A stretch of DNA of 42,410 nt from Paracoccaceae bacterium (GTDB lineage: Bacteria; Pseudomonadota; Alphaproteobacteria; Rhodobacterales; Rhodobacteraceae), in assembly GCA_021775315.1 (NCBI GenBank), contig JAJFIC010000107.1, positions 1 to 42,410 of the forward strand, in the 5' to 3' direction. A program made the translations under genes and the position numbers. The notes under the pieces were generated by a model. The model did not search any database and was not told the origin of the DNA. It was given only the letters and a program-made list of their open reading frames with translations. This document shows, in pieces, positions 8,767 to 27,421 of the stretch (its first letter is position 1; every line of letters begins with the position of its first letter).

Positions 8767-8876
8767 GTTTTACCTCTTTGTGAAAAACCGGTGGGGTCAG
8801 TCAACCACGCAGGGCAATGAATGGAAACCGTGAATGCGGCAGCAAAGACTCAACTCAAAGAATATTGCGCGTCAGA

Positions 8877-8893
8877 GGACAAATTTCTTGTCC
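8877..8893. promoter_or_regulatory. Inverted repeat upstream of the methyltransferase-TPR gene
   Basis: GGACAA-ATTTC-TTGTCC is a perfect 6-bp inverted repeat with a 5-bp centre. It lies 68 bp before ATG 8961, in the 194-bp gap between the divergent dipeptidase and methyltransferase genes. It may be an operator or a short mRNA hairpin. No matching second copy was seen. Confidence 0.3.
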
Positions 8894-8960
8894 AACGGCC
8901 CCCGGTCGCGTCACACTCGCAAAAAACAAAAGAGCAACAATAAAAACCGAGGCAGATATC

Positions 8961-10823
8961 ATGGTCGATGCGCTGACAAAGCTTGCGATAACCTATGGCA
9001 CGGACAAATTTGGTTATCACGACTACACCCCCAATTATTACAAATTGCTGAAACACCTGAAAAACCGGCCGATCAAGCTGTTGGAAATCGGTGTGGGTGG
9101 CTATCAGGACGCTGATCGCGGTGGTGAATCGCTTGAGGTTTGGCGCGATTTCTTTCCCAAGGCGCAGATCGTCGGCATTGATATTCAGAAGAAGGAAATG
9201 GATCTGGGGGAGCGGGTTTCGATCCTGCAAGGCAGTCAGGTTGATGCGGAATTCCTTGAAACCCTGGTGCGGGATCATGGACCGTTTGATGTTATTATTG
9301 ATGACGGCAGCCACCGGAACGAACATGTGGTGACCTCGTTTCAGCTGTTATATCCGACCCTGGCTGAGGGTGGGATTTACGTGGTTGAGGACGTGCAAAC
9401 CGCATTTTTCCCGCGTTTTGGCGGAAGTCTGGAAATGACGGCACCCAATTCGGTTGGGTATTTTGCCGACATGGTGCGGAAATTTGACAGCGACCGTGCG
9501 GATGTGCCTGCGGATATTACGACGATCAGTCGGTTTCACAACATGATCGCCATGCATAAAGGGCAGGCGGGTCAGGCGACCGACCTGAAGGCCATGTTCA
9601 AACCGTTAAAAGATGCGCCCGTGCGGTTGCTTGAAATCAGCCCTGAAGGTGTGTCGCTTGCAGGTTGGCGGGATTACTTTGCTGAGGGTCAGATAACTGG
9701 CATTGCGACGGGCGAACAGGCCGATGATCTGGGGCCGCGTGTACAGGTGGTGAAGGCGAGCAAGCCAAGTCTGAAAGACATCAAAAAACTGCGCAGCGAC
9801 TTTGGCCCGTTTGACATTGTGATTGATAACACCGGCCATAAAGGCGACAGCGTTAAGATGTTCGAGGCCTTGTGGCCGGGTCTGAACGACACAGGCTATT
9901 ATGTTCTTACCGGGGCTGATGCGGCTGTTGCTGATTTTGCCCATGATCGGTTTGTTGAGGTTGACCACCGCGAAATGCAGGTGTTTTTCCCTGAGGTTGA
10001 GGTCAATCCAGTAGCGCGGCAGATCTATGAGATGACGCGGTCCAAGGGTTTGATTACGCTTTACAAAGCGCCAAATGACTATCCGTCTAATTTCCGGTTT
10101 GAGTTTGACAATCCGCAGGCGGTGCATGCGCTGGATGAAATGGAAAAAGTGCTGAACCGCAGTGGCAAGGAACGCGGTTTTCTGCTGTTCGCCGATATTA
10201 TGACGCGCGGCGGTGATGATAAACGCGCCGCTAAGATGTTGAAAAAGCTGGCGGCCCTTGGGGCATCGTCGCGGTCCTATTTCAACATGGCTGTGCGACA
10301 AGCCAAGATCGACAAAGACTGGGATGGCGCGATGGTTTTGTTGCGGATGGCGGTAAAAACCTATCCGGATGATTATCGCATCCGCAGTCAGCTAGGCTCG
10401 GTTTTCAGCAAGGAAAAGGAATGGGAAAAGGCAGAAAAAGAGTTTGTGCGTGGCATTGAGCTAGCGCCGAAAGACCCACTGTTGCGGATACAGCTTGCCA
10501 ATGCATTGTCACGGCTCGACCGTCCGGACGAGGCGGTGTTGGCCGCCAGTTCGGCCTGTGAATTGGTGCCGGCGCATGTCGGTCACCGGGTTCAGCTTGG
10601 CCGTCTGCAATCCAACGCCGGACAGTTCGAGGCAGCGGTTGAAACGTTGAACCAAGCGGTTGCCCTTGATGGTGAAATGGCGAACGCGCATCGCCAGCTA
10701 AGCCGCGCTTTGGCCGAACTTGGCCGCAATTCCGAGGCGTTAGAAGTGGCTGATAAGGCGCTGGCATTGGTTCCGGAAAACCCGGAATACAAACGGTGGC
10801 AGGAACGGTTGCGCGCCGCTTGA
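8961..10823 (+). CDS. Methyltransferase / pseudo-methyltransferase / TPR fusion protein
   Basis: The 620-residue protein has three parts. Residues 1-200 form a class I SAM-dependent methyltransferase like the MycE/TylE macrolide-sugar methyltransferases: ITYGTDKFGYHDYTPNYY, SAM loop LLEIGVGGY (40-48), GIDI (72-75), and DDGSH (114-118, likely metal and base). Residues 220-325 repeat the same fold in the same order (RLLEISPEG, GWRDYF, FGPFDIVIDNTGH), but with the glycine-rich loop lost and DDGSH changed to DNTGH, so this copy is probably not catalytic. Residues 400-620 form several TPR repeats. The frame is open to 8817; ATG 8961 is chosen because the family begins there, and GAGG lies 8 bp upstream. 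A sulfotransferase-like gene follows after 20 bp. Substrate is unknown; a sugar or secreted small molecule is inferred. Confidence 0.8.
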   Translation: MVDALTKLAITYGTDKFGYHDYTPNYYKLLKHLKNRPIKLLEIGVGGYQDADRGGESLEVWRDFFPKAQIVGIDIQKKEMDLGERVSILQGSQVDAEFLETLVRDHGPFDVIIDDGSHRNEHVVTSFQLLYPTLAEGGIYVVEDVQTAFFPRFGGSLEMTAPNSVGYFADMVRKFDSDRADVPADITTISRFHNMIAMHKGQAGQATDLKAMFKPLKDAPVRLLEISPEGVSLAGWRDYFAEGQITGIATGEQADDLGPRVQVVKASKPSLKDIKKLRSDFGPFDIVIDNTGHKGDSVKMFEALWPGLNDTGYYVLTGADAAVADFAHDRFVEVDHREMQVFFPEVEVNPVARQIYEMTRSKGLITLYKAPNDYPSNFRFEFDNPQAVHALDEMEKVLNRSGKERGFLLFADIMTRGGDDKRAAKMLKKLAALGASSRSYFNMAVRQAKIDKDWDGAMVLLRMAVKTYPDDYRIRSQLGSVFSKEKEWEKAEKEFVRGIELAPKDPLLRIQLANALSRLDRPDEAVLAASSACELVPAHVGHRVQLGRLQSNAGQFEAAVETLNQAVALDGEMANAHRQLSRALAELGRNSEALEVADKALALVPENPEYKRWQERLRAA

Positions 10824-10843: not shown

Positions 10844-11599
10844 ATGCACCCGATAATTGCGCTTTGGGCCCATCCGCGATCCATGTCCACGGCCATTGAA
10901 CGCATCATGCGCGAGCGTGGTGATCTTACCTGTTTTCATGAACCGTTCATGTATGATTATTATGTCCAGCGGAAAATCCGTGTCATGCCGCATTTTGACA
11001 TTCAGCCCGATCATCCGGTCACCTATCAGGATGTGCGCGATATGCTGTTGGATCAGGCGCGGCGCGGCCCGGTGTTTCTGAAAGACATGAGCTATTACGT
11101 GATGCCGCATATCCTGTCGGACAAGGTTTTTCTGGATCGGATAAAGCATTGCTTTTTGATCCGCGATCCCGTGGCATCGATCCCATCCCATTACAAGCTG
11201 GACCCCGGTGTGAGCTGCGAGGAAATCGGGCTGGAGGCACAGTGGGACCATTATTCTGGTCTGAAATCCGCCGGGTTTGACCCGGTTGTGATCGAGGCTG
11301 AGAGTATTCGCAAGGACAGCAAACTGGCAATCACCGAACTTTGGCGCTCGGTCGGGTTGCCGTACGTGGCCCATGCGTTTGATTGGCAGGGTGATATCCC
11401 GCAGGATTGGGCGCAGGTTCAGGGTTGGCACGGCGATGTCAGCGCCTCGACCTCAATTCGCCCGATGGATGCGGATGAGTTGGAAAATCGCCAGCGGGCG
11501 TTTGATGATCTGGCGGGGAAGTTTCCGCATTTGCAGGACTATCTTGCGCATCACAGACCGTTTTACGACCAATTGCGGGCGGTTTCGCTGGTGGTGTGA
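10844..11599 (+). CDS. Sulfotransferase-like protein
   Basis: The 251-residue cytoplasmic protein matches the fold of PAPS-dependent sulfotransferases. The 5'-phosphosulfate loop is ALWAHPRSMSTAIERIM (residues 6-22). The acceptor-side motif FHEPFMYDYYV follows. The 3'-phosphate-binding Arg/Ser segment is HCFLIRDPVASIPSHYKL. This subgroup is also annotated as branched-chain-aminotransferase-like sulfotransferase, so transfer of sulfate is likely but the acceptor is not known. It lies 20 bp downstream of the methyltransferase-TPR gene and is probably co-transcribed, which suggests both modify the same molecule. It is tail-to-tail with the aminotransferase gene, only 6 bp apart. Confidence 0.75.
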   Translation: MHPIIALWAHPRSMSTAIERIMRERGDLTCFHEPFMYDYYVQRKIRVMPHFDIQPDHPVTYQDVRDMLLDQARRGPVFLKDMSYYVMPHILSDKVFLDRIKHCFLIRDPVASIPSHYKLDPGVSCEEIGLEAQWDHYSGLKSAGFDPVVIEAESIRKDSKLAITELWRSVGLPYVAHAFDWQGDIPQDWAQVQGWHGDVSASTSIRPMDADELENRQRAFDDLAGKFPHLQDYLAHHRPFYDQLRAVSLVV

Positions 11600-11605
11600 A
11601 ACCGG

Positions 11606-12931
11606 TCAGGACAGGGCGCAAAACGCCTGATCCAGACCGTCGGCCACCTGATCCACATCAGCAAGACTTAGGCATAGCGGCGGCACCATACGCAGCACCG
11701 ATTGAAACGGGCCGGATTTTGACAGGATCAACCCCGCCTTGCGGCAGTTTTCAAACACGGCGGCGGTGGTTTCTTTGTCGGGTTCCAAGCTGGCGCGATC
11801 TTTGACCATTTCGATGGCCAGCATCAGGCCGCGCCCGCGCACATCGCCAATGGCTTTGTGGCGGGTTTGCAGGTCTTTCAGGCGTGCCAACAGCGCATTG
11901 CCGACAGTTTTCGCGTTTTGTTGCAAGGCTTCATCCCGGATCACCGCCAGCACCGCGCGGCCTGCGGCGCAGCTGGTGGGGCTGGCCCCGTAGGTGTGAA
12001 ACAGGAACTTTTCCGCCATCGGGGCCGCGATCTGTTTACGCGCAACGACGGCCCCCAAAGGAAATCCGTTGCCGATGCCTTTGGCCATGACCACAATGTC
12101 GGGGATCACATCATCGGCTTCAAACCCCCACATGTTATCCCCGGTGCGGCCAAAACCTGATTGCACCTCGTCTGCGATGAACAGGCCCCCAGCGGCGCGC
12201 ACCCGCTCCGCCGCGCCTGACATATAGCCTTTTGGCGTTTCGATCACGCCGCCATAGCCTTGCACGGGTTCAATGACGATCCCGGCGATGCGTCCAGTTG
12301 TGGCGGTTGCAATCACGCGGTCGATCTCGTCGAGATAAGGTTGTGTGGTGGCCCCGAAAATGCCGCGATATTGGTTTGGTTCGGGCACAAAGGCGACATT
12401 GCCCGGCATACCGGGATGTCGCCAGCCCGCGATGCCGGTAATGGATTGCGCGGCGGCGGTCGGTCCGTGATAGCCGGTGCGCAGGGCCAAAAGGTCCAGA
12501 TTGCCAGTATAGGTGCGGGCCATGGTCATGGCGAGGTCAATCGCCTCGGCCCCGGAATTGGTGAAATGCACGACCCATTCGATATCGCCTTTTGGGCCTT
12601 TGGGCATCGTGGCGGCCAGTTCCTGGGCGAAATGCGCCGGGACCGGGTGATAGAACATGGTCGTGCAATGGGTCAGGTCCTGTGCCTGCTGCATGGCCGC
12701 ATCCACCACACGCGGATGGCAATGGCCGACAGAGATGCACACATTCATCCCCAGCAAATCGGTATATTTGCGCCCGTCTGCATCCCATAAATACTGCATC
12801 GCGCCTTTCTTAAAGACCAGCGGTTCTGCAAACGGCACGAATTTGCTTTGCGAGGCGGCGAAATAGCTGTCGCGGCGGTTTGCTGTGGCGTCGGTTGACC
12901 ACTCAACAGGCAGGGGTTGGTGGGCTTGCAT
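11606..12931 (-). CDS. Class III aminotransferase (AGXT2-like, PLP-dependent)
   Basis: The 441-residue pyridoxal-phosphate enzyme moves an amino group, often from an omega- or beta-amino acid, to glyoxylate or pyruvate. Motifs include HFTNSGAEAIDLAMTMAR (phosphate site), TGYHG, FIADEVQSGFGRTG (PLP-ring Asp at 254) and the Schiff-base Lys284 in VMAKGIGNGFPLGAVV. Overall it most resembles alanine-glyoxylate aminotransferase 2, whose members also use beta-alanine, beta-aminoisobutyrate and methylated arginine. It is the last gene of a minus-strand operon, 18 bp after the first dehydrogenase gene. That position suggests it acts on the demethylated product. Specificity cannot be read from sequence. 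Confidence 0.85.
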   Translation of the reverse strand: MQAHQPLPVEWSTDATANRRDSYFAASQSKFVPFAEPLVFKKGAMQYLWDADGRKYTDLLGMNVCISVGHCHPRVVDAAMQQAQDLTHCTTMFYHPVPAHFAQELAATMPKGPKGDIEWVVHFTNSGAEAIDLAMTMARTYTGNLDLLALRTGYHGPTAAAQSITGIAGWRHPGMPGNVAFVPEPNQYRGIFGATTQPYLDEIDRVIATATTGRIAGIVIEPVQGYGGVIETPKGYMSGAAERVRAAGGLFIADEVQSGFGRTGDNMWGFEADDVIPDIVVMAKGIGNGFPLGAVVARKQIAAPMAEKFLFHTYGASPTSCAAGRAVLAVIRDEALQQNAKTVGNALLARLKDLQTRHKAIGDVRGRGLMLAIEMVKDRASLEPDKETTAAVFENCRKAGLILSKSGPFQSVLRMVPPLCLSLADVDQVADGLDQAFCALS

Positions 12932-12949
12932 GTGCTCTCTCCAAATTCA

Positions 12950-15388
12950 TCAGGCTTTCAGGCGGTGGTTATCAGGGTCAAACGGCGGCCTGTCCAAAAC
13001 CCGTGCAGCGTACCGCGTGCCAAGGATTTCAACGCTAAGCCTGTCACGCGCGCCACGTTTACGCAAATAGGCAATGGCCAGCATTTTTTGGCAACGATGC
13101 CCAAAGCCGCCTGAGGTTACGATGCCGACAATGCCGGATGGATCATGCACCGCGTGGGCATAAAAAGGGTCCACGTCTGCGCCCGAAACCGCGAGCAGTA
13201 CCATTTCCCAGCGATCCGGGTCGTTCATGCGCGCCAGCAAGGCCGCACGTCCGGTGAAATCGCGCGCCTTTGGGTCGTGCCCATCAGGTTTGACCAAAAA
13301 GCCAAGTCCGCTTTCGGTTGGGCTGCGTTCGGTCGTCAGGTCGCTTCCCCACGCGCGATAGGCCTTTTCCAGCCGCATTGAATTGGCGGCATAGGCGCCG
13401 TAAAATCCCAGATTATGAGGCTTGCCCGCCGTTTCAAGGGCCAGAAACAGGGCGCACATGCCGTTGGCCGCGACGTGCAATTCCCAGCCGAGTTCGCCGA
13501 GATAGGACAGTCTGAGGGCGCGAACGGGGATGCCAGCCACCAGCAGGGTTTTCACGGTCAGCCATGCAAAATCACCGCTTAGGTCGTGGTCCGTCAGTTC
13601 GGCCAGCACGGCGCGTGATTTCGGGCCCATCAGGCCAAGAACACCGAAATCATTGGAAGTATTGGACAAAGTGACGTCAAAGCCATGGGCATGATGGCAA
13701 AGCACGTCCCAATCCATCTGCTCAGCCGCGGCTGCCGAGGTCAGATAGGCGTGATCGTCTGACAGCATCGAAACGGTAAATTCCGAACGAACGCCGCCTG
13801 CCGGGGTCAGGGCGTGGGTCAGGCCGATGCGCCCGGTGGCCGGTGCGCGATTGGCACCTAATGTTTCGACAAAGGCGCGCGCGTCCGGTCCTGTGACGTC
13901 AAATTTTGAAAAGACGGATAAATCAGCGAGGCTGACATGGTTGGTGGTGGTTTCAACTTCGCGGGCAATATGGGCAAACCAGTTTGGCCGGCGGAACGAA
14001 TGCGTGGCGCTGTCGCCGGGTTGGGTCGAAAACCAGTTTGGCCGCTCCCAGCCATATGCCACCCCCATAACCGCGCCGCGCGCCAGCATTTCATCGTGGA
14101 TCGGTGAGCGGCGTTTATTTCGCGCAGCCTCGCGTTCCTCAAACGGGTAATGCACGCCGAATTGCAGGCCAAAACATTCCACGGCTTTCTCAACCCGGTA
14201 ATCCCGGTCGGCCCATGTGCCAAAACGGCGACTGTCGATAGCCAAAGCGTCCATCGGCGGGGTGTTATGGGTCATCCAATGGGCCAGAAACCAGCCTGCG
14301 CCGCCGCCTTCCATAATGCCCATTGATGACCCGGTCAGCAGCCAGGCGTTTTCCAGCCCATGCGCCGGGCCGATCAGCGGATTTGCGTCAGGCGTAAAGG
14401 TGATCGGGCCGTTGACCACGGATTTCACCCCGGCGGTGCCAAGGGCCGGAATACGCTCCATTGCTGCTGTGATGATATGTTCGACGCGATCAAGATCAGG
14501 CGGCATAAGGTCCGCGCCAAATTCGGGCGGCACACCGTCGATGGACCACGTTTGGGCGTGTTGTTCATAGGGTCCAAGGATCAGGCCGTCGCGTTCCTGA
14601 CGCACGTACCAGCTTTCTTCGGGGTCGCGGATGATCGGCAGTTCGGGCAGGCCAGCGGCCATTCGGGCGGTGACGTCAGGCACGGTATCGGTGACCAGAT
14701 ATTGATGCAGCATCGGTACTGAGGGACTATTCAGCCCCATCATATGGCCGATTTCCCAGCCCCATGTGCCAGCGGCGTTGACGATGTGGCGGGCGTTTAT
14801 CACACCCTTTTCGGTTTCAACCCGCCAATGATCGCCTTCGCGTCTGATGGCGCGCGCAGGATTGTAACGCTGGATCGCAGCACCGTTCTGAACCGCGATC
14901 TGGGCCATAGCGTTGGTTGCAAGTGTCGGGTCGACATGGCCATCATCAGGTTCATAAATCCCGCCCAACAAACCATCAAGCCGGGCCAACGGGTGCAGTT
15001 CGGCCACCCGTTCAGGCGTCAGGATTTCCAGCGGGTAGCCGGTGAAGGCTGACAGGCCTGCGACATGGGCAAACTCGTCCATCCGATCCGGATTGCGGGT
15101 GATCCGCATCGCGCCTGAAGCGTGAAAGCCGACATTCTGACCGGTTTCAGCAGGCAAAATATCGCGATAAAGCCGCACGGACGTGGCGCGCAATTCCTGT
15201 ATGGTGGCGTTATGGGCGAAATGGGTGCACAGCCCGGCCGCGTGCCATGTGGAGCCATGGGTGAGGTCGTTTTTTTCAACCAAAACCACGTCTTTCCAGC
15301 CCGCTTTGGTCAGGTGATAGATCAGCGACACCCCCATGATGCCACCACCGATGACCAGTACCTGAGCCTCTGTTTTGCGCGTGTTCAT
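12950..15388 (-). CDS. Dimethylglycine dehydrogenase-like flavoprotein with GcvT domain (copy A)
   Basis: The 812-residue enzyme is expected to oxidise an N-methyl group and pass the one-carbon unit to tetrahydrofolate. The FAD dinucleotide fold is at the N-terminus (VIGGGIMGVSLIYHL). His49 in HGSTWHAAG aligns with the histidine that carries covalent FAD in mammalian dimethylglycine dehydrogenase. The DAO domain runs to about residue 370 (WYVRQERDGLILGPYE, VVNGPITFTPDANPLIGP). An FAO_M segment then leads to the C-terminal GcvT aminomethyltransferase domain (from about 440), with RLSYLGELGWELHV and RLEKAYRAWGSDL. It is closer to DMGDH than copy B is. Its start overlaps the stop of copy B by 4 bp. 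Confidence 0.88.
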   Translation of the reverse strand: MNTRKTEAQVLVIGGGIMGVSLIYHLTKAGWKDVVLVEKNDLTHGSTWHAAGLCTHFAHNATIQELRATSVRLYRDILPAETGQNVGFHASGAMRITRNPDRMDEFAHVAGLSAFTGYPLEILTPERVAELHPLARLDGLLGGIYEPDDGHVDPTLATNAMAQIAVQNGAAIQRYNPARAIRREGDHWRVETEKGVINARHIVNAAGTWGWEIGHMMGLNSPSVPMLHQYLVTDTVPDVTARMAAGLPELPIIRDPEESWYVRQERDGLILGPYEQHAQTWSIDGVPPEFGADLMPPDLDRVEHIITAAMERIPALGTAGVKSVVNGPITFTPDANPLIGPAHGLENAWLLTGSSMGIMEGGGAGWFLAHWMTHNTPPMDALAIDSRRFGTWADRDYRVEKAVECFGLQFGVHYPFEEREAARNKRRSPIHDEMLARGAVMGVAYGWERPNWFSTQPGDSATHSFRRPNWFAHIAREVETTTNHVSLADLSVFSKFDVTGPDARAFVETLGANRAPATGRIGLTHALTPAGGVRSEFTVSMLSDDHAYLTSAAAAEQMDWDVLCHHAHGFDVTLSNTSNDFGVLGLMGPKSRAVLAELTDHDLSGDFAWLTVKTLLVAGIPVRALRLSYLGELGWELHVAANGMCALFLALETAGKPHNLGFYGAYAANSMRLEKAYRAWGSDLTTERSPTESGLGFLVKPDGHDPKARDFTGRAALLARMNDPDRWEMVLLAVSGADVDPFYAHAVHDPSGIVGIVTSGGFGHRCQKMLAIAYLRKRGARDRLSVEILGTRYAARVLDRPPFDPDNHRLKA

Positions 15389-17784
15389 GGTCGCATCCTT
15401 TGGCCGGTCGGATCATAAGGTGGGCGGGTCAGGATTTTGGCGGCATAGCGTTTGTCGGCAATCTCGACCTCAAACGCGCGTTCGCTGGTGATCGCCAATG
15501 GCTCGTCCCTTTTGATGTCGATCAGGCCAAAGGCCAGTGTTAATCCTGTGCGTGCGCCAATGCCGCCCGAGGTTGTCAGGCCGACGATCTGTGTGCCTTG
15601 CCAGATCGGTTCGTCATGCAGGACCAGTGGATCACCACTAAGCTGCATCAGAACAAGGCGGCGTGCCAGGCCCTGATCGCGTTGCTTGCGCACCGCCGCT
15701 TTGCCAAGGAAATCCTTGGACCAGTCGATGGTGAAGCCAAGACCGGCCTCAAGCGGGGAAATCATTGGCCCCAATTCGTGGCCCCAATGTTTAAAGCCTT
15801 TTTCGATGCGGCATGCTTCCAGCGCGTAATGCCCCATAGGTTCGGCCCCTAGGCTGGCAAGGGCCGAGAACACTGTCGGGCCGTGGTGGGCTGGAATGGA
15901 CAGCTCCCACCCCAGATCGCCGACAAAGCTGAGCCTTGTGGCGGTGCAGGCAACTCCGGCGAGTGTTACTGTGCGCGCGGTTGAGAATGGGAAATTGTCC
16001 CAGTTATCTGCGGACAGGGCTTTGATGGTGTCGCGCGATCCTGCCCCCATGACGCCGATCACGACCTCGACCTCAGTTCGGTCGGTGATGGTGACATTTA
16101 GACCTTCAGCGGCACGTCTGAGAAGGGCCAGATCACGACGTCGGGTCGCAGCACCTGAGGTCAGGCGGAACTGGTCTGCGGCGGTTCTGGTGATGGTCAC
16201 ATCCGCCTCGATCCCGCCTGCGGCATTGAGCAACGGGGTGTAGACCGCGCGGCCAATTTCAACGTCGATTTGGGCGCAGGCGAGGTGGTTTAACAGGGGC
16301 AGCGCGGCGCGGCCGCTAAGGTCAAACTTGCCAAAGGGCGACAGGTCTAAAAGGGCGGTGCCGCGCTGCATAATTGCCGCTTCGCGCTTGATAATCGCCT
16401 GCCAGGGTTGGGCACCGACCGAATAGGGCAGGTCACGCTCGGCGGCGTTTTTTGCGTACCACAAGCCGCGTTCCCAGCCTCCAGTCAGCCCGAATTCTGC
16501 CCCGGCTGCGGCCCACTGATCATGCAGGGCTGATTTGCGCAAACCCCGCCCGGCGCGTGGTTGTTTGAACGGCCAGTGCAGCGTAAACTGATCCGCCACG
16601 GCCTCTTGCATGCGCGATTGCATATGCGCGGGGGTTGCAGCACGGGCATCGGCGCGGGCGATATCAACCTCCCACAGGTCCATGGGCGGATGGCCATCCA
16701 GCATCCAGTCGGCCAGAACCCGACCGATCCCGGCAGAGGACATGACGCCGACGGAATTCATACCTGCCGCCACGAACAACCCATCCATTTCCGGCGTTTC
16801 CCCGATCAAGGGCCGGGTGTCATGGGTGAAACTTTCCGGGCCGTTCATGAAATGCTGAATGCCGGTGTCTGCCAGTGCCGGGATCAGGTTGAGGGCGGCC
16901 TGCATGAAAGGCGTGAACTGGTCCCAATCTTCGGCCATTTCCAGAAACGGGCGGTTGCCTTCGGGGCTGAAAGCGTCCCAGCACTTGGCGTCCGCCTCGA
17001 ACCCGCCGATGATCAGTTTGCCTGCGTCACCCTTGATGTAAATCCCGGTGTCAAGGTCGCGTAGCACCGGAAACGGTTGGCTGAGGCCGGGCATCGGTTC
17101 GGTGACCACATACATATGCTGAACCGCCTGTAACGGCAGCGCGACACCGACGCCATCAGTCAGGCGTTTGGACCATGCCCCGGCGCAGATCGCGACCTGA
17201 TCGGCGCGCGCAACGCTGCCATCGCTGAGGCGAACGCCGGTCACTTTGTCGCCCACGCACTCCAGTGCTGTCACCGCGACGCCCTCGCGAATTTCAACGC
17301 CCGCACGTCGTGCAGCACTGGCGTAAGCCATGCACAGGTCAACCGGATTGACGCTGGCGTCTTCCGCCACGGACATGACGCCGACCAGACCGCTGGCATC
17401 GACATCCGGCAGAGCGCTGGCGAGGGTTTGCGGCTTGATCATATGTGGATGCAGACCGAAATGCCGCCCCAAGGCGGCGATCCGGTTGAGCTCGTCCATC
17501 CGCTCGGGCACCCGCGCCAGCCAATAGCCGCCAGTTTCGCGATATCCGGTGGCAAGGCCGGTTTGGGTTTCAAGCTGGGGGAACAATTCACCCGCATACA
17601 TTGCCAGCCGCGTCATGTTGGGGGTCGCGCGCAACGGGCCGACAATGCCTGCTGCATGCCATGTGGTGCCCGAAGTTAGTTGGTTGCGTTCCAACAACAG
17701 CACGTCATCCGCACCACGTTTGCCCAAATGATAGGCAAGGCTAAGGCCGATCGCGCCACCGCCTATGATGATGATCCGCGCCAT
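15385..17784 (-). CDS. Dimethylglycine/sarcosine dehydrogenase-like flavoprotein with GcvT domain (copy B)
   Basis: The 799-residue paralogue of the neighbouring copy has the same architecture: Rossmann fold IIIGGGAIGLSLAYHLGKRG, TSGTTWHAAG with His43 as likely covalent FAD site, DAO domain, FAO_M, and C-terminal GcvT (LSFVGDLGWELSIPAHHG, ACRIEKGFKHWGHEL). The two copies differ widely in sequence, so they are not a recent duplication and probably act on different N-methyl substrates, for example dimethyl and monomethyl forms. It starts 1 bp after the MttB-like gene stop and overlaps copy A by 4 bp, so the three are tightly coupled. Sarcosine dehydrogenase is the main alternative name. Confidence 0.87.
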   Translation of the reverse strand: MARIIIIGGGAIGLSLAYHLGKRGADDVLLLERNQLTSGTTWHAAGIVGPLRATPNMTRLAMYAGELFPQLETQTGLATGYRETGGYWLARVPERMDELNRIAALGRHFGLHPHMIKPQTLASALPDVDASGLVGVMSVAEDASVNPVDLCMAYASAARRAGVEIREGVAVTALECVGDKVTGVRLSDGSVARADQVAICAGAWSKRLTDGVGVALPLQAVQHMYVVTEPMPGLSQPFPVLRDLDTGIYIKGDAGKLIIGGFEADAKCWDAFSPEGNRPFLEMAEDWDQFTPFMQAALNLIPALADTGIQHFMNGPESFTHDTRPLIGETPEMDGLFVAAGMNSVGVMSSAGIGRVLADWMLDGHPPMDLWEVDIARADARAATPAHMQSRMQEAVADQFTLHWPFKQPRAGRGLRKSALHDQWAAAGAEFGLTGGWERGLWYAKNAAERDLPYSVGAQPWQAIIKREAAIMQRGTALLDLSPFGKFDLSGRAALPLLNHLACAQIDVEIGRAVYTPLLNAAGGIEADVTITRTAADQFRLTSGAATRRRDLALLRRAAEGLNVTITDRTEVEVVIGVMGAGSRDTIKALSADNWDNFPFSTARTVTLAGVACTATRLSFVGDLGWELSIPAHHGPTVFSALASLGAEPMGHYALEACRIEKGFKHWGHELGPMISPLEAGLGFTIDWSKDFLGKAAVRKQRDQGLARRLVLMQLSGDPLVLHDEPIWQGTQIVGLTTSGGIGARTGLTLAFGLIDIKRDEPLAITSERAFEVEIADKRYAAKILTRPPYDPTGQRMRP

Positions 17785-17785
17785 G

Positions 17786-19330
17786 TCAGTAATACGCCTT
17801 ATCGGGTTTTTCGGCCTTCCGCCGGGCGATATAGTCTAACAATGCGGCGTCAATCGCCGGGTCCAATCCCGGATCATGATAGTCGCCAAGCTGGCGTTTC
17901 CACTGCGCGTTGGCGCGGCTGGCGGCATCAAGCCCACCATCAGATGCCCATTGTTCATATGAATTGTTGTCAGGCGTGTCTGGCCGGAAAAACGCGTCGC
18001 GGAAATTGGCCTGCGTGTGATCGGCACCCAGAAAATGCTGGCCCGGCCCGGTTTCAGCGATGGCAGACATCGCCTGTGCGTTGATGCTAAGGTCAATGCC
18101 ATCAAAAAACCGTGCGACCTTGCCGCAGATATCAGCGTCCAGCATGGTTTTCTCAAGCCCTGTCACCAGCCCGCCTTCCAGCCAGCCTGTGGCGTGGTTG
18201 ATCAGGTTGGCACCGGCAAACATCGCCATCATCAGGCCCCATGTTGCCTCTTGCTGGCTTTGACCGTCCGGCAGTTTTGACGATGATAGCGCACCAACCG
18301 TGTGCAGCGGTACGCCAAGGCAACGCGCCAGTTGGCCCGAGGCCAGCACCATTTGTGCAGCCTCAGGCGTGCCAAAGGTCGGTGCGCCGTTCTGCATCGA
18401 CAGGGTCGAGGCGAAGCTGCCCATCAGGCAAGGCGCACCGGGATTGATAAGCTGTACAAGACAAAGGCAAGCCATCGCCTCGGCCAGAACCTGTGCCAGT
18501 GTTCCGGCGACGGTGCAGGGGCTCATCGCGCCGGCAAGCACCCAGGGCGTGCAGGCGACAGGCTGGCCCGCGCGGGCATAGGTTTTCAGCGCGCCTGACA
18601 TGTTGGCATCCATCACCAGCGGTGCATTGGTGTTGGATACGCAATAAAGCACGGGGTTTTCCGCCACGAAATCCGCACCGAACAGGATGCGCGCCATATC
18701 CAGCGTATGGCCCGCGCGCTCAGCCCCGATGAAGGCCCCCATAAACGGGCGATCAGACCAGCGGATATGGGCGTAAAGCATATCAAGGTGGCGTTTATTG
18801 GCAGGCAGATCGACAGGTTCGCAGACCACGCCGCCGGAATGATGCAGATGCGGAATTGTATGGTGCAGTTTCACCAACCGGGTGAAATCATCGAAGGTGG
18901 CATAGCGGCGACCGTGGTCAAGATCATGCACGAAAGGTGGTCCCCATGACGGGCAGAGAACCGAGTTCATGCCGCCCAGCCGGACCGATTTGGCCGGATT
19001 GCGGGCGTGTTGCGTAAATTCAACGGGCGCGGTTGCCTGAATGATATTACGGCAGAAACCGGGGGTAAAACGCACCCGCGTGCCTTCGACATCACAGCCA
19101 GCATCGGCAAAGATTTGCAGAATCTCCGCGTCGTCGTGAAACTCCATACCCGTTTGATGCAGGATCAGATCGGCGTTGTGTTCGATCAACTCTAGACCTT
19201 CAACGCTCAGCACCTCGTAACAGCCGAGTTTGCGGCTGATATAGGCAGATGTTGGCGGCGGCGTTTGCGTTCGCCCCTGACGGCCACCTGACCTGCGTTT
19301 GTGCGCTGGCTTTTCTATTTCGATTTCCAT
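17786..19330 (-). CDS. Trimethylamine methyltransferase (MttB) family protein, non-pyrrolysine
   Basis: The 514-residue protein belongs to the MttB superfamily, whose members move a methyl group from a quaternary or tertiary amine to a corrinoid protein. Recognisable segments are an Arg/Gly-rich N-terminus, LILHQTGMEFHDDAEILQIF, NSVLCPSWGPPFVHDLDHGR, and the C-terminal half with GALSSSKLPDGQSQQEATW. The frame has no in-frame amber codon, so it is of the pyrrolysine-free type (as in the glycine-betaine enzymes). The open frame reaches 19681, but the upstream part overlaps the divergent LysR gene; ATG 19330 gives the usual family length. Ribosome site is weak. No corrinoid-binding partner gene is in the window. 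First gene of the operon. Confidence 0.82.
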   Translation of the reverse strand: MEIEIEKPAHKRRSGGRQGRTQTPPPTSAYISRKLGCYEVLSVEGLELIEHNADLILHQTGMEFHDDAEILQIFADAGCDVEGTRVRFTPGFCRNIIQATAPVEFTQHARNPAKSVRLGGMNSVLCPSWGPPFVHDLDHGRRYATFDDFTRLVKLHHTIPHLHHSGGVVCEPVDLPANKRHLDMLYAHIRWSDRPFMGAFIGAERAGHTLDMARILFGADFVAENPVLYCVSNTNAPLVMDANMSGALKTYARAGQPVACTPWVLAGAMSPCTVAGTLAQVLAEAMACLCLVQLINPGAPCLMGSFASTLSMQNGAPTFGTPEAAQMVLASGQLARCLGVPLHTVGALSSSKLPDGQSQQEATWGLMMAMFAGANLINHATGWLEGGLVTGLEKTMLDADICGKVARFFDGIDLSINAQAMSAIAETGPGQHFLGADHTQANFRDAFFRPDTPDNNSYEQWASDGGLDAASRANAQWKRQLGDYHDPGLDPAIDAALLDYIARRKAEKPDKAYY

Positions 19331-19453
19331 CCCGGCAAAGATTTCCGCATTTGGATTGCGAGCCAAGCCTGACAGGTGCCGCGCACAAAGCAATTGCCAA
19401 TGGGCATCATTAGATATTTTAATACAGTTAGGTTCTTTGTAAGGAGGCGCGCC
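19331..19453. promoter_or_regulatory. Divergent promoter region, LysR gene / demethylation operon
   Basis: The 123-bp gap separates the MttB-like and LysR genes. An A+T-rich core at about 19408-19437 (TTAGATATTTTAATACAG) stands out from the GC-rich surroundings and could hold both -10 boxes and a LysR T-N11-A type site. The LysR gene has a strong ribosome site AAGGAGG at 19441-19447. Exact promoter elements cannot be assigned. Confidence 0.45.
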
Positions 19454-20419
19454 ATGCCCAGCCGAATTTCCAGCGACAGCAATCTGACAAGATCGCTTGA
19501 GGTTTTTGTCGCAATCATTGAAACCGGGCAGGTGACGCTGGCGGCGAAATTGCTGGGCCTGACGCAATCTGCGGCCTCGCAACATTTGCAACAACTTGAA
19601 ACGGCTTTTGACGCGACGCTGCTGGATCGCACCAGCCGCCCGCTGAAACCAACGCAGGCCGGGCATTCGGTGCATCGTCATGCGCTGAGGATTCTCAATC
19701 AGGTTGAGGATCTGATTTCAGACATGCGCCATCAGGGGCCGCGTCCGATCAGCGTGCTGCGGGTTGGCATGCTGGCCTCGACCGCGACCACTTTGACGCC
19801 TGATCTGGTGGCCTTGGCCAAGGACAGGTTTGGCGTTCAGGATATGACGCTGCATGCCGGGCAGAGCCGCGATCACGAGGGGTTGCTGCGCAGTAAACAG
19901 GCCGATCTGGTGATCACCTCAAACCCGCTTTATGACATGGACGGCCTGGAACGGCACCCGATCCTGACGGAGTCCTTTTTGCTGGTCCTGCCAAAGTCTT
20001 ATCGCGGTTCAACCAGCGATATGACCGAGATATTCAAGACCCTACCGCTGGTGCGGTTTGCCCATACCACCAATGTCGGGCGGCGAACTGAACAGCATTT
20101 GCGACGGCTAAAGCTGGAAGTGCCGCGGATCATTCAGGCGGACCGATCAAGCATGGTGACCGCCTGTGTGGCGCGTGGAATGGGGTGTACTTTTTTGACG
20201 CCCAGCCTGCTGATTGATGGGTTTGTTGAACAAATGCCGTTGAATATCAGACCCTTGCCAATCGCCGGGTTTTCGCGTGAAATCACTTTGCTGGCGCGCC
20301 AAAAGGAACTGGGCGCGTTGCCCGCACAGTTTGCCGAGACGGCGAAACAGATATTGGCCAAGCAAATCGGTGCGCAGATGGGGGCGACTGGGTTGAACGC
20401 GGTTAGAATTCACGACTGA
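19454..20419 (+). CDS. LysR-family transcriptional regulator
   Basis: The 321-residue regulator has an N-terminal winged helix-turn-helix at residues 12-70 (LEVFVAIIETGQVTLAAKLL, GLTQSAASQHLQQLE) and a C-terminal periplasmic-binding-protein-like effector domain from about residue 95. ATG 19454 is preferred over the longer frame from 19376 because AAGGAGG precedes it by 6 bp. It is divergent from the demethylation operon, the usual layout for a LysR activator of the adjacent pathway, so the pathway substrate or an intermediate is the likely inducer (inference). It is convergent with the sensor kinase gene, 22 bp apart. Confidence 0.9.
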   Translation: MPSRISSDSNLTRSLEVFVAIIETGQVTLAAKLLGLTQSAASQHLQQLETAFDATLLDRTSRPLKPTQAGHSVHRHALRILNQVEDLISDMRHQGPRPISVLRVGMLASTATTLTPDLVALAKDRFGVQDMTLHAGQSRDHEGLLRSKQADLVITSNPLYDMDGLERHPILTESFLLVLPKSYRGSTSDMTEIFKTLPLVRFAHTTNVGRRTEQHLRRLKLEVPRIIQADRSSMVTACVARGMGCTFLTPSLLIDGFVEQMPLNIRPLPIAGFSREITLLARQKELGALPAQFAETAKQILAKQIGAQMGATGLNAVRIHD

Positions 20420-21767: not shown

Positions 21768-22423
21768 CCGTTGCCCAGCCGATAGCCAACGCCGCGTTCG
21801 GTTTCGATCATTGTTTTACCGAGCTTCTTGCGCAGTCGGCTGATATGCACCTCGATCGAGTTGCTTTCGATTTCTGAGGCAAAGGAATAGAGGCGTTCTT
21901 CGAGCTGGGTTTTGGAAAATAACTGTCCGGGGCGTTGGGCGAAGGCTTCAAACAGCACCCATTCACGCGCGGTCAGGGTGACGCGCTTGCCTGCTTTGGT
22001 GATGCTGCGGTTGGCCAGATCAATCAGCAGATCGCCGATTTCGATCAACGGGTTGGGGTTGCCGGAATAGCGCCGCGCAACCGCGTTCAGGCGGGCGGAC
22101 AATTCCGATAAATCAAACGGCTTGACCAGATAATCATCGGCCCCGGCATTCAACCCGTCGATCCGGTCAGAAATCTGATCAAGCGCGGTCAGGATAATCA
22201 CCGGCGTCACGTCGCCTTTGGCGCGTTGGGCGCGCAGGAATGTCAGGCCTTTGCCATCGGGCAGCATCAGATCAAGCAGGATCAGGTCGTAATTGGTCAG
22301 CTGGGTGTGCGCCGCTGCATCATCCAACCGTTGCACCCAATCAATACTGTGCCCGTCATCCGTGACCTGATCGCGCACGGCTGCACCTAAAATCATGTCG
22401 TCCTCGACCAGCAGAACCCGCAT
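21764..22423 (-). CDS. OmpR/QseB-type response regulator
   Basis: The 219-residue regulator has a receiver domain (residues 1-115) with acidic pocket EDD at 7-9, phospho-acceptor Asp51 in LILLDLMLPDG, and Lys101 region DDYLVKPFDLSEL. The C-terminal winged helix (about 125-219) includes TAREWVLFEAFAQRPGQLFS and IEVHISRLRKKLG. Members of this family bind direct repeats spaced 11 bp; such boxes lie 57 bp upstream of its start in the gap shared with the PepSY gene. It is likely autoregulated and controls the redox cluster on the other strand (inference from the boxes). Confidence 0.94.
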   Translation of the reverse strand: MRVLLVEDDMILGAAVRDQVTDDGHSIDWVQRLDDAAAHTQLTNYDLILLDLMLPDGKGLTFLRAQRAKGDVTPVIILTALDQISDRIDGLNAGADDYLVKPFDLSELSARLNAVARRYSGNPNPLIEIGDLLIDLANRSITKAGKRVTLTAREWVLFEAFAQRPGQLFSKTQLEERLYSFASEIESNSIEVHISRLRKKLGKTMIETERGVGYRLGNG

Positions 22424-22478
22424 CGTGTTTTCCCTTGTTCCGCGTCAGTGCGGTGTTGCCTTTGTACTGGCGCGCTGG

Positions 22479-22529
22479 CCTTACGGCAACCTGAAGCACG
22501 GATTGCTGTCCGTTCAGGTTGCTGTAAGG
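22479..22529. promoter_or_regulatory. Inverted pair of 17-bp response-regulator boxes
   Basis: Box 1 (plus, 22480-22496) reads CTTACG-GCAAC-CTGAAG. Box 2 (minus, 22528-22512) reads CTTACA-GCAAC-CTGAAC. Extended arms 22479-22495 and 22529-22513 match at 16 of 17 positions. Each box is itself a direct repeat of a CTKANN half-site with a 5-bp spacer (11-bp period), the geometry used by PmrA/OmpR-type regulators. A third copy is at 23657-23673. It lies between the regulator gene and the PepSY gene. Confidence 0.7.
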
Positions 22530-22577
22530 CGCGTCCTTGATAACGCCGCTATCGCAACCCGAAACGGGGAACCAAAA

Positions 22578-22994
22578 ATGAAAGCTCGATTGTTGATAGC
22601 CGCCGTGATTCTGCCCGCCGTTATGGCCGGTAGTGCCCAAGCCGATGACGACGATTGTTTCGTCCCGATGAACGACTGGCAACCCAGAAGCGCCGTCAAG
22701 ACCATGGCCGAGGCCGAGGGCTGGAAGGTCCGGCGGATCAAGACGGATGATGGATGTTACGAAGTGAAAGGCTGGGATCAGCAAGGCAATGAAATTGAAG
22801 TCAAGGTCGACCCTCAGACGCTTGAGATCGTTAAATTCGAGATCGAGAAGTTTCATGAGGATGATGATCACGACGATGATGATGATCACGACGATGATGG
22901 CGACGATGATGACGATGATGACGACGACGACAATGATGATGACGATGATGATGATGATGATGACGACAAGCCAAATGTCAGGGTGACGGATTGA
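22578..22994 (+). CDS. Secreted PepSY-domain protein with poly-aspartate tail
   Basis: The 138-residue protein starts with a Sec signal peptide (MKARLLIAAVILPAVMAGSAQA). A compact PepSY-type domain follows at about residues 28-93 (DWQPRSAVKTMAEAEGWKVR, CYEVKGWDQQGNEIEVKVDP, QTLEIVKFEIEKF). The last 45 residues are almost pure Asp with a few His, Asn and Gly, which would bind divalent or trivalent cations in the periplasm. ATG 22578 is chosen for its signal peptide and GGGGA ribosome site; the frame is open further upstream. It is the first gene of an operon with cytochrome b561, divergent from the two-component system. Similar PepSY/b561/QseBC groupings are common in proteobacteria; exact function is unknown. 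Confidence 0.85.
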   Translation: MKARLLIAAVILPAVMAGSAQADDDDCFVPMNDWQPRSAVKTMAEAEGWKVRRIKTDDGCYEVKGWDQQGNEIEVKVDPQTLEIVKFEIEKFHEDDDHDDDDDHDDDGDDDDDDDDDDNDDDDDDDDDDDKPNVRVTD

Positions 22995-23524
22995 TGATAC
23001 GTGTTTGGGATCCGCTGATCCGCGTTTTCCACTGGGGTCTTGTGGCCAGTTTCGCAATCGCTTGGGTGACTGCCGAAGGTTTGGAGGACCTGCATGAATG
23101 GGCCGGATACGCCGCCGCCGCTTTGATCGGGTTTCGCCTGATTTGGGGCCTGATCGGGCCGCGCTATGCCCGGTTCAGCCAATTTGTGAAATCACCGCGC
23201 AGTGTGTTGGCTTACCTTCGGGCGATGCTTGCGGGACGTGAAAAGCGGTATGTTGGTCACAACCCGGCGGGCGCTTTGATGATCCTTGCGCTGCTGGCCG
23301 GAATGGCGGCAACCGCCTGGACCGGCTGGCTGCTGACCCTGCCGCAATATGCCAAAATGGATTTGGTTGAAGAAGGTCACGAGATGATCGCCAGCCTGCT
23401 GTTGGCGCTCGTGATCGCCCATGTGGTCGGGGTGTTCTGGGCCACTTGGCGGCATCAGGAAAACCTGGCGCGGTCGATGGTTACGGGCAAAAAACGCAAG
23501 GCCGGGCCAAAAGATATCGCCTGA
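22994..23524 (+). CDS. Cytochrome b561 family membrane protein
   Basis: The 176-residue protein has four hydrophobic segments and histidines typical of di-heme cytochrome b561/hydrogenase-type b subunits: H13 in RVFHWGLVASF, DLHEWAGYAAA, EEGHEMIAS and LVIAHVVGVFW. It would carry electrons across the inner membrane. Start ATG 22994 overlaps the PepSY stop (TGATG), so the two are translationally coupled; a TTG at 22991 is an alternative. A strong terminator follows 50 bp downstream. Its partner is probably the periplasmic PepSY protein or the downstream DUF2271 protein (inference). Confidence 0.9.
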   Translation: MIRVWDPLIRVFHWGLVASFAIAWVTAEGLEDLHEWAGYAAAALIGFRLIWGLIGPRYARFSQFVKSPRSVLAYLRAMLAGREKRYVGHNPAGALMILALLAGMAATAWTGWLLTLPQYAKMDLVEEGHEMIASLLLALVIAHVVGVFWATWRHQENLARSMVTGKKRKAGPKDIA

Positions 23525-23574
23525 ACGAACCCCACCAGTGATCAAAGGCGCACTTGCCCGTGTCACCGGTCAAG

Positions 23575-23603
23575 CACCCCGTTCCGGCGGGGTGTTTTCG
23601 TTT
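23575..23603 (+). terminator. Rho-independent terminator after cytochrome b561
   Basis: Perfect 7-bp stem CACCCCG (23575-23581) / CGGGGTG (23588-23594) with a TTCCGG loop, followed by TTTTCGTTT. It ends the PepSY-b561 transcript, so the next operon needs its own promoter. Confidence 0.85.
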
Positions 23604-23656
23604 GGCGGGCATGACTTTGGCGCACAACCCAAAGCCACGCCAGATTGATCGCCAAA

Positions 23657-23673
23657 CTGACAGCAACCTGAAG
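23657..23673 (+). promoter_or_regulatory. Third response-regulator box, upstream of the DUF2271 gene
   Basis: CTGACA-GCAAC-CTGAAG repeats the core GCAACCTGAA of the two boxes at 22479-22529. It lies between the terminator and the DUF2271 gene, 81 bp before its ATG, in plus orientation. It suggests that the second operon is controlled by the same two-component system. Confidence 0.6.
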
Positions 23674-23754
23674 CAGTTTTTCGCCAAACGTCAGGAAGCG
23701 GTCAGTTCCCGCCGCCATATTGGCACCATACCAACCAAGACAAGGACGCAACTT

Positions 23755-24225
23755 ATGAAAAAGATCGCAACCGCACTGGCCATTGCCACCGCACTTAGCC
23801 TGCCCGCAATGGTGCAGGCGAAACCTGTTACCCTGACCACCCAGCTGAAACGCTATGGCGGCGACGGAGCCTATCTGGCGCTGTATCTGACGGATGCCAA
23901 TGGCGCTTACAAAGGCACGCTTTGGATGTCCGGCGGAAAATCGAAATACTACAAACATCTCAGCGATTGGACCCGCGCCAGCGGCGGAAATAAGGCTGAT
24001 ATCAACGGCATAACCGGGGCCAGTGTCGGTGCAGGAAAAACCCTGACGGTTACGGTTGATCTGGCCGACGCGCTGTTTGATGCCGGATATAACTTGCATA
24101 TTGATGCCTCTGTTGAAGATATGCGCGACAGCCCGTCCGAGGTCGTCGTGCCGCTGGATAGCAACAATATCGGCAAATCCTTCAAAGGTCGCCGTTACAT
24201 CAAAGCTTTCAATTTCAAAAAATAA
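23755..24225 (+). CDS. DUF2271 periplasmic protein, candidate FMN carrier
   Basis: The 156-residue protein has a Sec signal peptide (MKKIATALAIATALSLPAMV, cleavage after QA) and a DUF2271 domain, which is beta-rich (YLALYLTDANGAYKGTLWMS). Residues 82-90, DINGITGAS, resemble the (D/N)GxxGA(S/T) signature of proteins that receive covalent FMN from ApbE, with Ser90 as the candidate site. This is inference from the motif and from the ApbE gene in the same operon. The start is set by AAGGA 9 bp upstream and by the signal peptide. It is 21 bp before the PepSY-reductase gene. Likely role is a periplasmic electron carrier. Confidence 0.75.
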   Translation: MKKIATALAIATALSLPAMVQAKPVTLTTQLKRYGGDGAYLALYLTDANGAYKGTLWMSGGKSKYYKHLSDWTRASGGNKADINGITGASVGAGKTLTVTVDLADALFDAGYNLHIDASVEDMRDSPSEVVVPLDSNNIGKSFKGRRYIKAFNFKK

Positions 24226-24246
24226 TTTCCAGACAGGACAGTGCCG

Positions 24247-26466: not shown

Positions 26467-27421
26467 GGCCAAAGTGGATGATCCGGCCCTTAGTGTGATC
26501 AATGGCGCAACGATGGGAACGCGGTATTCTGCAACCTTTCTGGCGCCCCCGAACACTGATCTTTCCGACCTTGATGCTGCATTGTTTGCAGCCGTGGACC
26601 GGGTCGATGCGCAGATGTCGACGTGGAAGCCACGCTCAGACCTGATGCGGTTGAACGGCGCACCAGTTGGGCAATGGGTTGAAATTCCACGCGAATTGAT
26701 GCGGGTTCTGGGTTGCGCGCTGGACATTGGGCGCGTCACAAACGGGGCGTTTGACATCGCCTTGGGGGATTTGACCAATGTCTGGGGGTTCGGGGCCGTG
26801 GGCCAAATGCCTGATGCGCTGGCGATCAAAACCCGGCTTGGTAAAGTTCAGACACCGGCCTTTGAAGCGGTTGAGTTGGACAGTGAGGGGTTGCGCGCGC
26901 GCCGCTTGGAACCGGTTCAGTTGGACCTGTCCGGCATCGCAAAGGGCTTTGGCGTTGATGAAATGATGCGGTGCTTGCATGGATTTGGCATTAAGAACGC
27001 TTTGGTCAGTCTGGACGGTGAACTTAGGGCCAGCGGTCAGAAAACCGCAGATGCACCCTGGTCAGTGGCGATTGAAAAACCGGATTATGCCAATCGCGCA
27101 CCGCTGGGTGTTATCGCGCTGGAAGACGCGGCGATTGCCACGTCAGGCGATTACCGCCATTGGATTGACGTCGGGGATATCCGCCTGTCACACACGATGG
27201 ACCGCCAGTCAGGTGGCCCGCTTAAGAACCGGGTCGCGTCAGTTTCGGTCATAGCTGAAAGTTGCATGGAGGCCGATGCATGGGCCACGGCGCTGATGGT
27301 TATGGGTGATGTTGCTGGCCCGGCATTGGCGCGGGCCAAAGGGCTGCAAGCCTTGTTTGTTACGCGCGATAGGGATGGCATCGGCGAGATCCCGGTGGGT
27401 CAGGTGTTTTGCAGCCCATAA
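26456..27421 (+). CDS. apbE: ApbE-family FAD:protein FMN transferase
   Basis: The 321-residue enzyme attaches FMN from FAD to a Ser/Thr of target proteins. Family motifs are present: GATMGTRYSATF (18-29), TNGAFDIALGDLTNVWGFG, LDLSGIAKGFGVDEMM, NALVSLDGELRASG, ATSGDYRHW and a metal-site region MEADAWATALMVMG. It overlaps the reductase gene by 11 bp. The ATG at 26456 follows a GGAAGG ribosome site. Unlike typical ApbE lipoproteins it shows no signal peptide or lipobox, so it may act in the cytoplasm; this is odd if its target is the secreted DUF2271 protein. It is the last gene of the operon. Confidence 0.92.
   Translation: MSIEAKVDDPALSVINGATMGTRYSATFLAPPNTDLSDLDAALFAAVDRVDAQMSTWKPRSDLMRLNGAPVGQWVEIPRELMRVLGCALDIGRVTNGAFDIALGDLTNVWGFGAVGQMPDALAIKTRLGKVQTPAFEAVELDSEGLRARRLEPVQLDLSGIAKGFGVDEMMRCLHGFGIKNALVSLDGELRASGQKTADAPWSVAIEKPDYANRAPLGVIALEDAAIATSGDYRHWIDVGDIRLSHTMDRQSGGPLKNRVASVSVIAESCMEADAWATALMVMGDVAGPALARAKGLQALFVTRDRDGIGEIPVGQVFCSP

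Follow-up and report, generated by a model that had tools for sequence, protein, structure and literature searches.

A possible six-part route for the breakdown of a hydroxylated trimethylammonium compound in Rhodobacteraceae, with a sulfotransferase-like protein among its components

In the aerobic Rhodobacteraceae member Ruegeria pomeroyi, the MtgBCD system couples an MttB-family enzyme to shared corrinoid (MtgC-type) and pterin (MtgD-type) proteins and leaves the later demethylations to other enzymes, and the sections of that study on which we draw propose further substrates for its extra MttB paralogues (PMC12478193). In Eubacterium limosum, choline must be phosphorylated by MthK before the MttB-type enzyme MthB accepts it, as stated in the parts of the report used here (PMC12155760). 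We describe an operon that recalls both systems, found on a 42,410-nucleotide stretch of DNA (hereafter the window) which is contig C10 of a 111-contig, 3.69 Mb genome of a Paracoccaceae bacterium (assembly GCA_021775315.1, contig JAJFIC010000107.1). It encodes an MttB homologue, two flavoenzymes of the dimethylglycine dehydrogenase (DMGDH) type and a class III aminotransferase (AT), with a divergent LysR-type regulator. Beside it lies a gene for a sulfotransferase-like protein (ST) of the type that uses 3'-phosphoadenosine-5'-phosphosulfate (PAPS), likely a sixth component that the initial annotation of this DNA overlooked. Tentatively, we propose that the six parts, ST included, form a catabolic route for a small hydroxylated trimethylammonium compound.

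The initial annotation had placed an MttB-like methyltransferase, two distinct DMGDH-like enzymes and a class III aminotransferase in one tight operon with its own LysR regulator, and the reading frames, Pfam domains and gene spacing confirm this (Table 1). All four genes are open frames, transcribed from the minus strand in the order MttB homologue, flavoenzyme 1, flavoenzyme 2 and AT. A single base pair separates the first two, the flavoenzyme frames overlap by 4 bp, and 18 bp lie between flavoenzyme 2 and AT, with which the ST gene is convergent. The LysR gene probably starts at ATG 19454, which is preceded by AAGGAGG, and not at GTG 19376.

Table 1. Components of the operon and adjoining features on the window.
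Feature	Position	Strand	Evidence
MttB-superfamily methyltransferase, non-pyrrolysine, 514 aa	17786..19330	-	PF06253, 637 bits
DMGDH-type flavoenzyme 1, 799 aa	15385..17784	-	Pfam domains; 406 bits to mammalian DMGDH
DMGDH-type flavoenzyme 2, 812 aa	12950..15388	-	Pfam domains; 654 bits to mammalian DMGDH
Class III pyridoxal phosphate (PLP) aminotransferase (AT), 441 aa	11606..12931	-	Aminotran_3, 297 bits
PAPS-type sulfotransferase-like protein (ST), 251 aa, proposed sixth component	10844..11599	+	Sulfotransfer_5, 32 bits
Divergent LysR-type regulator (longer frame from 19376)	19454..20419	+	HTH_1, LysR_substrate
Putative divergent promoter region, MttB/LysR intergenic	19331..19453	.	Sequence

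Conservation of the operon, the check originally suggested, was followed in loci from named genomes collected by a scan with AT alone (the best 80 of 204). The MttB homologue, both flavoenzymes and AT occur together in 67 of the 80 and, since AT alone had brought these loci in, the grouping goes beyond chance. Of the remaining 13, nine run into the end of their contig, the operon of L113 (Ruegeria spongiae) is broken, and AT stands by itself in three (L093, L108 and L109), where inspection of the neighbours by eye revealed nothing informative. The carriers are mostly Rhodobacteraceae, joined by some Hyphomicrobiales, gammaproteobacterial and other records. Two layouts are found among the complete loci, all genes being co-directional in 38 and divergently arranged in 29; in 28 of these 29, MttB is of a more distant type (~52% identical). 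A LysR relative at 40% identity or more accompanies 56 of the 67. The same gene set, with a 62% AT and a betaine ABC transporter, is present on the Mesorhizobium plasmid pB1-1-8 (L131, 2772-6352). Genes for an amidohydrolase, a Rieske protein and a hybrid-cluster reductase are found close to this plasmid copy and may contribute a further step of activation or cleavage.

The PF06253 profile covers residues 12-508 of the operon's MttB homologue, whose frame has no in-frame stop or amber codon, placing it in the non-pyrrolysine part of the superfamily. It scores 568 bits against 4yyc and 357 bits against the D. hafniense protein 2qne, a nearly identical match to 9yce, a glycine betaine methyltransferase. 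The host genome encodes ten PF06253 proteins, one of which, on contig C34, is nearer to both references (749 and 419 bits, respectively) and on these scores is likely the glycine-betaine enzyme of this genome; when the two are compared, the operon protein is not the closest to the solved MtgB-type proteins. In a tree with 19 rows of type A (18 drawn from 36 usable ones, plus the window protein) and 16 of type B (drawn from 33 usable ones), the two operon types form sister clades (100/98), A including the window protein, and none of the host genome's nine other paralogues joins either clade; long branches are flagged. The separation of this clade from the C34 protein agrees with the original view that the substrate is something other than glycine betaine.

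Candidate partners for corrinoid-dependent demethylation are present in the host genome. Contig C45 encodes a 254 aa stand-alone B12-binding protein beside DUF1638 and homocysteine S-methyltransferase genes, and two pterin-binding (PF00809) proteins are encoded as well; their roles in methyl transfer are predicted. The C45 set matches the split system of R. pomeroyi, whose corrinoid protein is accompanied by homocysteine S-methyltransferase and DUF1638 genes in the account cited (PMC12478193). The genome has three B12-binding proteins, of which only that of C45 is small and stand-alone, against ten MttB homologues, so many demethylases may use one common corrinoid partner. Elsewhere in the host genome (L124, G000:C41:1-19900), two MttB homologues cluster with genes for a DMGDH-type protein, a DHDPS-family protein and a DAO-type FAD oxidoreductase, perhaps another betaine pathway.

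Both flavoenzymes have the domain order DAO, FAO_M, GCV_T and GCV_T_C that marks DMGDH and sarcosine dehydrogenase, and the WHAAG stretch, whose histidine presumably carries flavin adenine dinucleotide (FAD). Each is 30-38% identical to the orthologues of the other, and against the same mammalian DMGDH reference flavoenzyme 2 scores 654 bits versus 406 for flavoenzyme 1. Such dissimilarity fits two different steps, without proving them, and the two enzymes may act one after the other.

The nearest solved relatives of AT are the ethanolamine-phosphate phospho-lyase ETNPPL (6tor) and the phospho-lyase 5g4i, and for this reason a phospho-lyase acting on a phosphocholine route was the first alternative considered; the residue counts of AT speak against it. 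We aligned 94 orthologous rows (the window, 14 family genomes and 79 named loci, the truncated L073 being dropped). Lys 284 and Arg 414, which we take to be the PLP lysine and, from 4-aminobutyrate (GABA) aminotransferase, the carboxylate-binding arginine, are present in all 94, as predicted for a class III transaminase. The acid-binding position is Arg in every orthologue, versus Lys in 15 of 15 class III paralogues, 6tor and 5g4i. The two positions held by His in phospho-lyases, and in 13 of the 15 paralogues at each, are Ser (94/94) and Phe (92/94, with Ile in two) in AT orthologues. The signature GNGHP, HVGH and LK common to 6tor and 5g4i, whose residues would bind phosphate, is replaced at these three positions by Phe/Ile, Ser and Arg. 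The GABA-carboxylate arginine, presumably position 141 in E. coli GABA aminotransferase, is matched by Pro in 92 of the 94 and by Ala in two. Among the best 25 of 69 NCBIfam families that match AT, none reaches its cut-off. Taken from the alignment, these residues point to a transaminase using a keto acid.

The score of ST against Sulfotransfer_5 lies just over the cut-off of 23 bits. Its motifs HPRS.ST and R.P.....S, which we take to be the 5' and 3' phosphate-binding motifs of PAPS sulfotransferases, are invariant in 19 aligned rows of 33 found. An AlphaFold2 model (pLDDT 91) has sulfotransferases as its top matches in the PDB (E 7e-7), with some kinases lower down. Motifs and fold together identify a putative PAPS-dependent sulfotransferase, for which sulfuryl transfer is the predicted activity. 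On the same strand, a methyltransferase-TPR protein gene (window 8817-10823) ends 20 bp ahead of ST.

A local ST orthologue was found in 31 of the 80 named loci, often next to AT or to flavoenzyme 2, or else between the genes for MttB and flavoenzyme 1. Across 248 family genomes, flavoenzyme 2 is present in 13, ST in 14 and both in 12 (Fisher p=1.4e-17, counting genomes as independent despite their shared ancestry). The only genome with flavoenzyme 2 and no ST, G228, has a broken flavoenzyme gene. When AT (at least 61% identity) replaces flavoenzyme 2 in the count, it is found in 15 of the 248 genomes, 12 of them with ST; the others are G064 and G215, which have no flavoenzyme 2, and again G228. 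In six genomes (G036, G038, G073, G133, G200 and G223) ST is unlinked, on another contig or ~600 kb off, with no operon gene within ~9 kb on either side, and therefore a common neighbourhood does not explain the co-occurrence. The genomes of 35 named loci without local ST were also searched throughout (L117 was left out, and 14 of the 80 belong to neither group): ST occurs elsewhere in 26 of 32 that carry the operon and in none of the three with AT alone. The named and family counts overlap by at least three genomes with the same ST coordinates (G629/G036, G643/G038 and G663/G223). Among 385 class-level genomes, ST at E<=1e-40 was found only in the host genome, and 18 others have a flavoenzyme 2 match at E<=1e-220, at 45-49% identity. 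The plasmid-borne relatives of ST are distant ones from Streptomyces only.

More distant settings of ST were also seen. A 47% ST of genome G208 (L144, 9864-15633) lies near genes for an L-carnitine-dehydrogenase-like protein (269 bits, cut-off 414), a BKACE-type protein, a short-chain dehydrogenase/reductase and a Rieske oxygenase, a setting that is suggestive but a single case; counterparts of this Rieske gene and of a regulator, at 75% and 61%, adjoin the operon in L070. In two gammaproteobacteria (L174, 3785-10484, and L181), ST shares a cluster with genes for a TRAP transporter and a flavoenzyme; in L174 the flavoenzyme is of family TIGR03364 (HpnW-type), and a 2-aminoethylphosphonate-type ABC transporter is adjacent.

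Some relatives carry genes for sulfate activation next to ST. In L090 (Pseudohalocynthiibacter aestuariivivens RR4-35), the interval between AT and ST holds genes for CysQ (260 bits, cut-off 229) and for a bifunctional sulfate adenylyltransferase/adenylylsulfate kinase, that is, a PAPS synthase (1037 bits, cut-off 669). The synthase directly adjoins ST in L062 and L172, where in each case the contig breaks off, and in L171 and L175, where flavoenzyme 2 is followed in turn by the dehydrogenase, the betaine importer, the synthase and ST; CysQ adjoins ST at L170. These counts come from a search of 112 plus 26 stretches (six common to both sets), rather than whole genomes; about 65 of them hold ST and five of these have PAPS synthase, some of the five from related genera. 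A dedicated supply of PAPS, where present, suggests that sulfate transfer would run at the rate of a catabolic flux.

Genes for an OpuA-type binding protein, whose best solved relative is the betaine-type binding protein 4xz6 (142 bits), stand beside the operon in 14 of the 80 loci; these transporter neighbours indicate only a betaine-type substrate, as predicted from sequence, and nothing narrower. A short-chain dehydrogenase, at least 59% identical to that of L090, accompanies 11 of the 80 and is closest to 3-hydroxybutyrate dehydrogenases, under their cut-offs. A probe for aldehyde dehydrogenase matched seven other named loci; its hits lie 2 to 9 kb away from the operon and never adjoin it. 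In the related loci L063, L065 and L068 (~12400-13700), an APH-type phosphotransferase gene follows shortly behind AT and ST, a kinase that could be relevant to an alcohol substrate. Farther along the window are an unusual short NRPS-like gene (29292-32243), whose 983 aa product combines condensation, carrier, thioesterase and TPR domains, and, at 22395-27421, a frame that closes with a long Asp-rich tail; after this come a frame for a membrane protein, a PepSY/flavodoxin reductase and ApbE.

In the route that we propose, the MttB homologue would transfer the first methyl to the shared corrinoid protein and thence to tetrahydrofolate, the two flavoenzymes would oxidatively remove the second and third methyls onto folate, and the PLP enzyme would take off the amino group last. 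ST would sulfate a hydroxyl, either on the substrate itself or on an intermediate, and the substrate would therefore be an N-trimethylated amino alcohol, of the choline or carnitine type, and not a plain omega-amino-acid betaine. The presence of ST suggests such a hydroxylated compound, or else another use of sulfate; the order of the steps, the point of sulfation and the substrate itself are what we infer from the gene set. The sulfate could provide an anionic 'betaine' for the enzymes to hold, by analogy with phosphocholine in E. limosum, or it could act as a leaving group for the PLP enzyme. A full sulfate cycle may be imagined, in which the amino alcohol is sulfated via PAPS, loses its three methyls while a sulfate ester and is relieved of its ammonia by the PLP enzyme, which would perhaps also expel the sulfate for re-activation by the PAPS synthase that some relatives have in their ST cluster; we regard this complete version as doubtful. 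The sequence of three demethylations and a transamination put forward initially is strengthened by the corrinoid partners and the AT residues, and one corrinoid- and two flavin-dependent demethylations followed by loss of nitrogen is an account that is sound as far as it goes; it was incomplete in missing ST, and the succession of the two flavoenzymes within it is still conjectural. Several observations weigh against a route that includes sulfation. Superposition of the ST model on known sulfotransferases is loose (TM ~0.5), and in G004 and G208 a 47% ST occurs with flavoenzyme 2 absent. No ST was found at E<=1e-30 in six of the 32 operon genomes (L055, L069, L089, L104, L114 and L118), so ST is not universal; Roseovarius nubinhibens ISM is among the carriers of the operon in which it was not found. 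No PAPS synthase gene was found in the window or in about 60 of the ~65 ST-bearing stretches examined, and the transaminase residues of AT argue against a sulfate-expelling lyase. Further, R. pomeroyi handles choline and carnitine by other routes (BetABC and CdhABC), according to the parts of that study used here (PMC12478193).

The initial annotation had favoured a betaine of a beta- or omega-amino acid, for example of beta-alanine or 4-aminobutyrate, and this idea, in which such a betaine (of beta-alanine, GABA or a taurine-like compound) is demethylated three times and its amine transaminated while ST serves some other, correlated need, strikes us as rather unlikely. It would accommodate the Arg that all 94 AT orthologues have where paralogues and phospho-lyases have Lys, the betaine-type importer genes adjoining the operon, and the 3-hydroxybutyrate-dehydrogenase-like enzyme of some loci, which could process the semialdehyde. 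The Pro or Ala at the GABA-carboxylate position of AT does not favour it, and it leaves without explanation both the presence of ST in 12 of 13 flavoenzyme 2 genomes and the PAPS synthase of five relatives; sulfation is a poor fit to a plain betaine of beta-alanine or GABA, which has no hydroxyl to offer. ST might instead act at the end or to the side of the route, with the short-chain dehydrogenase reducing the aldehyde that AT produces to an alcohol, which would then be sulfated for export or other use. This we think unlikely: the dehydrogenase does adjoin the transporter and ST in several loci, but such a use would be wasteful in catabolism and the linkage is confined to the 11 loci given above. 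A second glycine-betaine operon, with AT working on glycine/glyoxylate or an unrelated amine, is less probable still, even with a DMGDH-like flavoenzyme 2 and an MttB related to glycine betaine methyltransferase, since the same genome holds a closer MtgB candidate on C34, the operon MttBs form a clade of their own, and a transaminase is superfluous for glycine. Least probable, in our judgement, is the demethylation of phosphocholine to phosphoethanolamine, split in turn by the PLP enzyme as ETNPPL does. The solved relatives of AT, the demethylation of phosphocholine by MthB in E. limosum, as described in the sections consulted (PMC12155760), and the APH-type gene near the operon in three loci would agree with it; it ignores ST, and AT has Ser, Phe and Arg where phospho-lyases have His, His and Lys, a comparison in which two of the 15 paralogues also lack each His and none lacks the Lys.

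Marine bacteria hold many MttB paralogues without a known substrate, and the operon described here provides one of them with a complete, testable set of partners, while the link to ST reduces the range of substrates to be considered. Should the route include sulfation, PAPS would be consumed in breaking down a carbon and nitrogen source, for which we know of no description, and the turnover of methylated nitrogen in the sea would be tied to sulfate activation. If the full sulfate cycle were true, it would constitute a counterpart, based on sulfate, to the pairing of kinases with phospho-lyases and to the MthK/MthB route. The initial annotation knew of no described pathway with exactly this set of enzymes, and we likewise found none: in the literature searched, which covered subscription journals thinly, there was no description of the gene set, of its substrates or of a sulfotransferase in demethylation. 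The parts are of known kinds; within that literature, their combination and the link to ST appear new.

Compared with MtgBCD of R. pomeroyi, as far as the sections drawn on describe it, the operon differs in the clade of its MttB and in having a pair of DMGDH-type enzymes of its own, a class III AT and ST (PMC12478193); were glycine its product, as in an MtgBCD-like system, AT would stay unexplained. The MthK/MthB/MthC/MthA pathway of E. limosum offers the analogy that we propose, a quaternary amine esterified ahead of its demethylation by an MttB-type enzyme, but it employs a kinase and ATP where this locus would employ ST and PAPS, demethylates choline a single time in an acetogen, and has no aminotransferase among the components described in the parts of the report used here (PMC12155760). 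Mammalian DMGDH (4pab, 4p9s and 5l46) shares the domain order, the WHAAG stretch and the folate domain of both flavoenzymes, whereas the operon carries two paralogues of dissimilar sequence. By score, the closest class III relatives of AT are ETNPPL-type phospho-lyases and the large fusion proteins PRK06148/06149, which presumably carry a kinase-like domain; AT differs from the ETNPPL type at three signature residues, has Arg at the acid-binding position and is partnered by ST. Finally, the fold matches of ST include the sulfotransferase domains of CurM (4gbm) and an olefin synthase (4gox), which we take to prepare a hydroxyl for elimination; both belong to polyketide synthases, whereas ST is a stand-alone protein of 251 aa linked to a demethylation operon.

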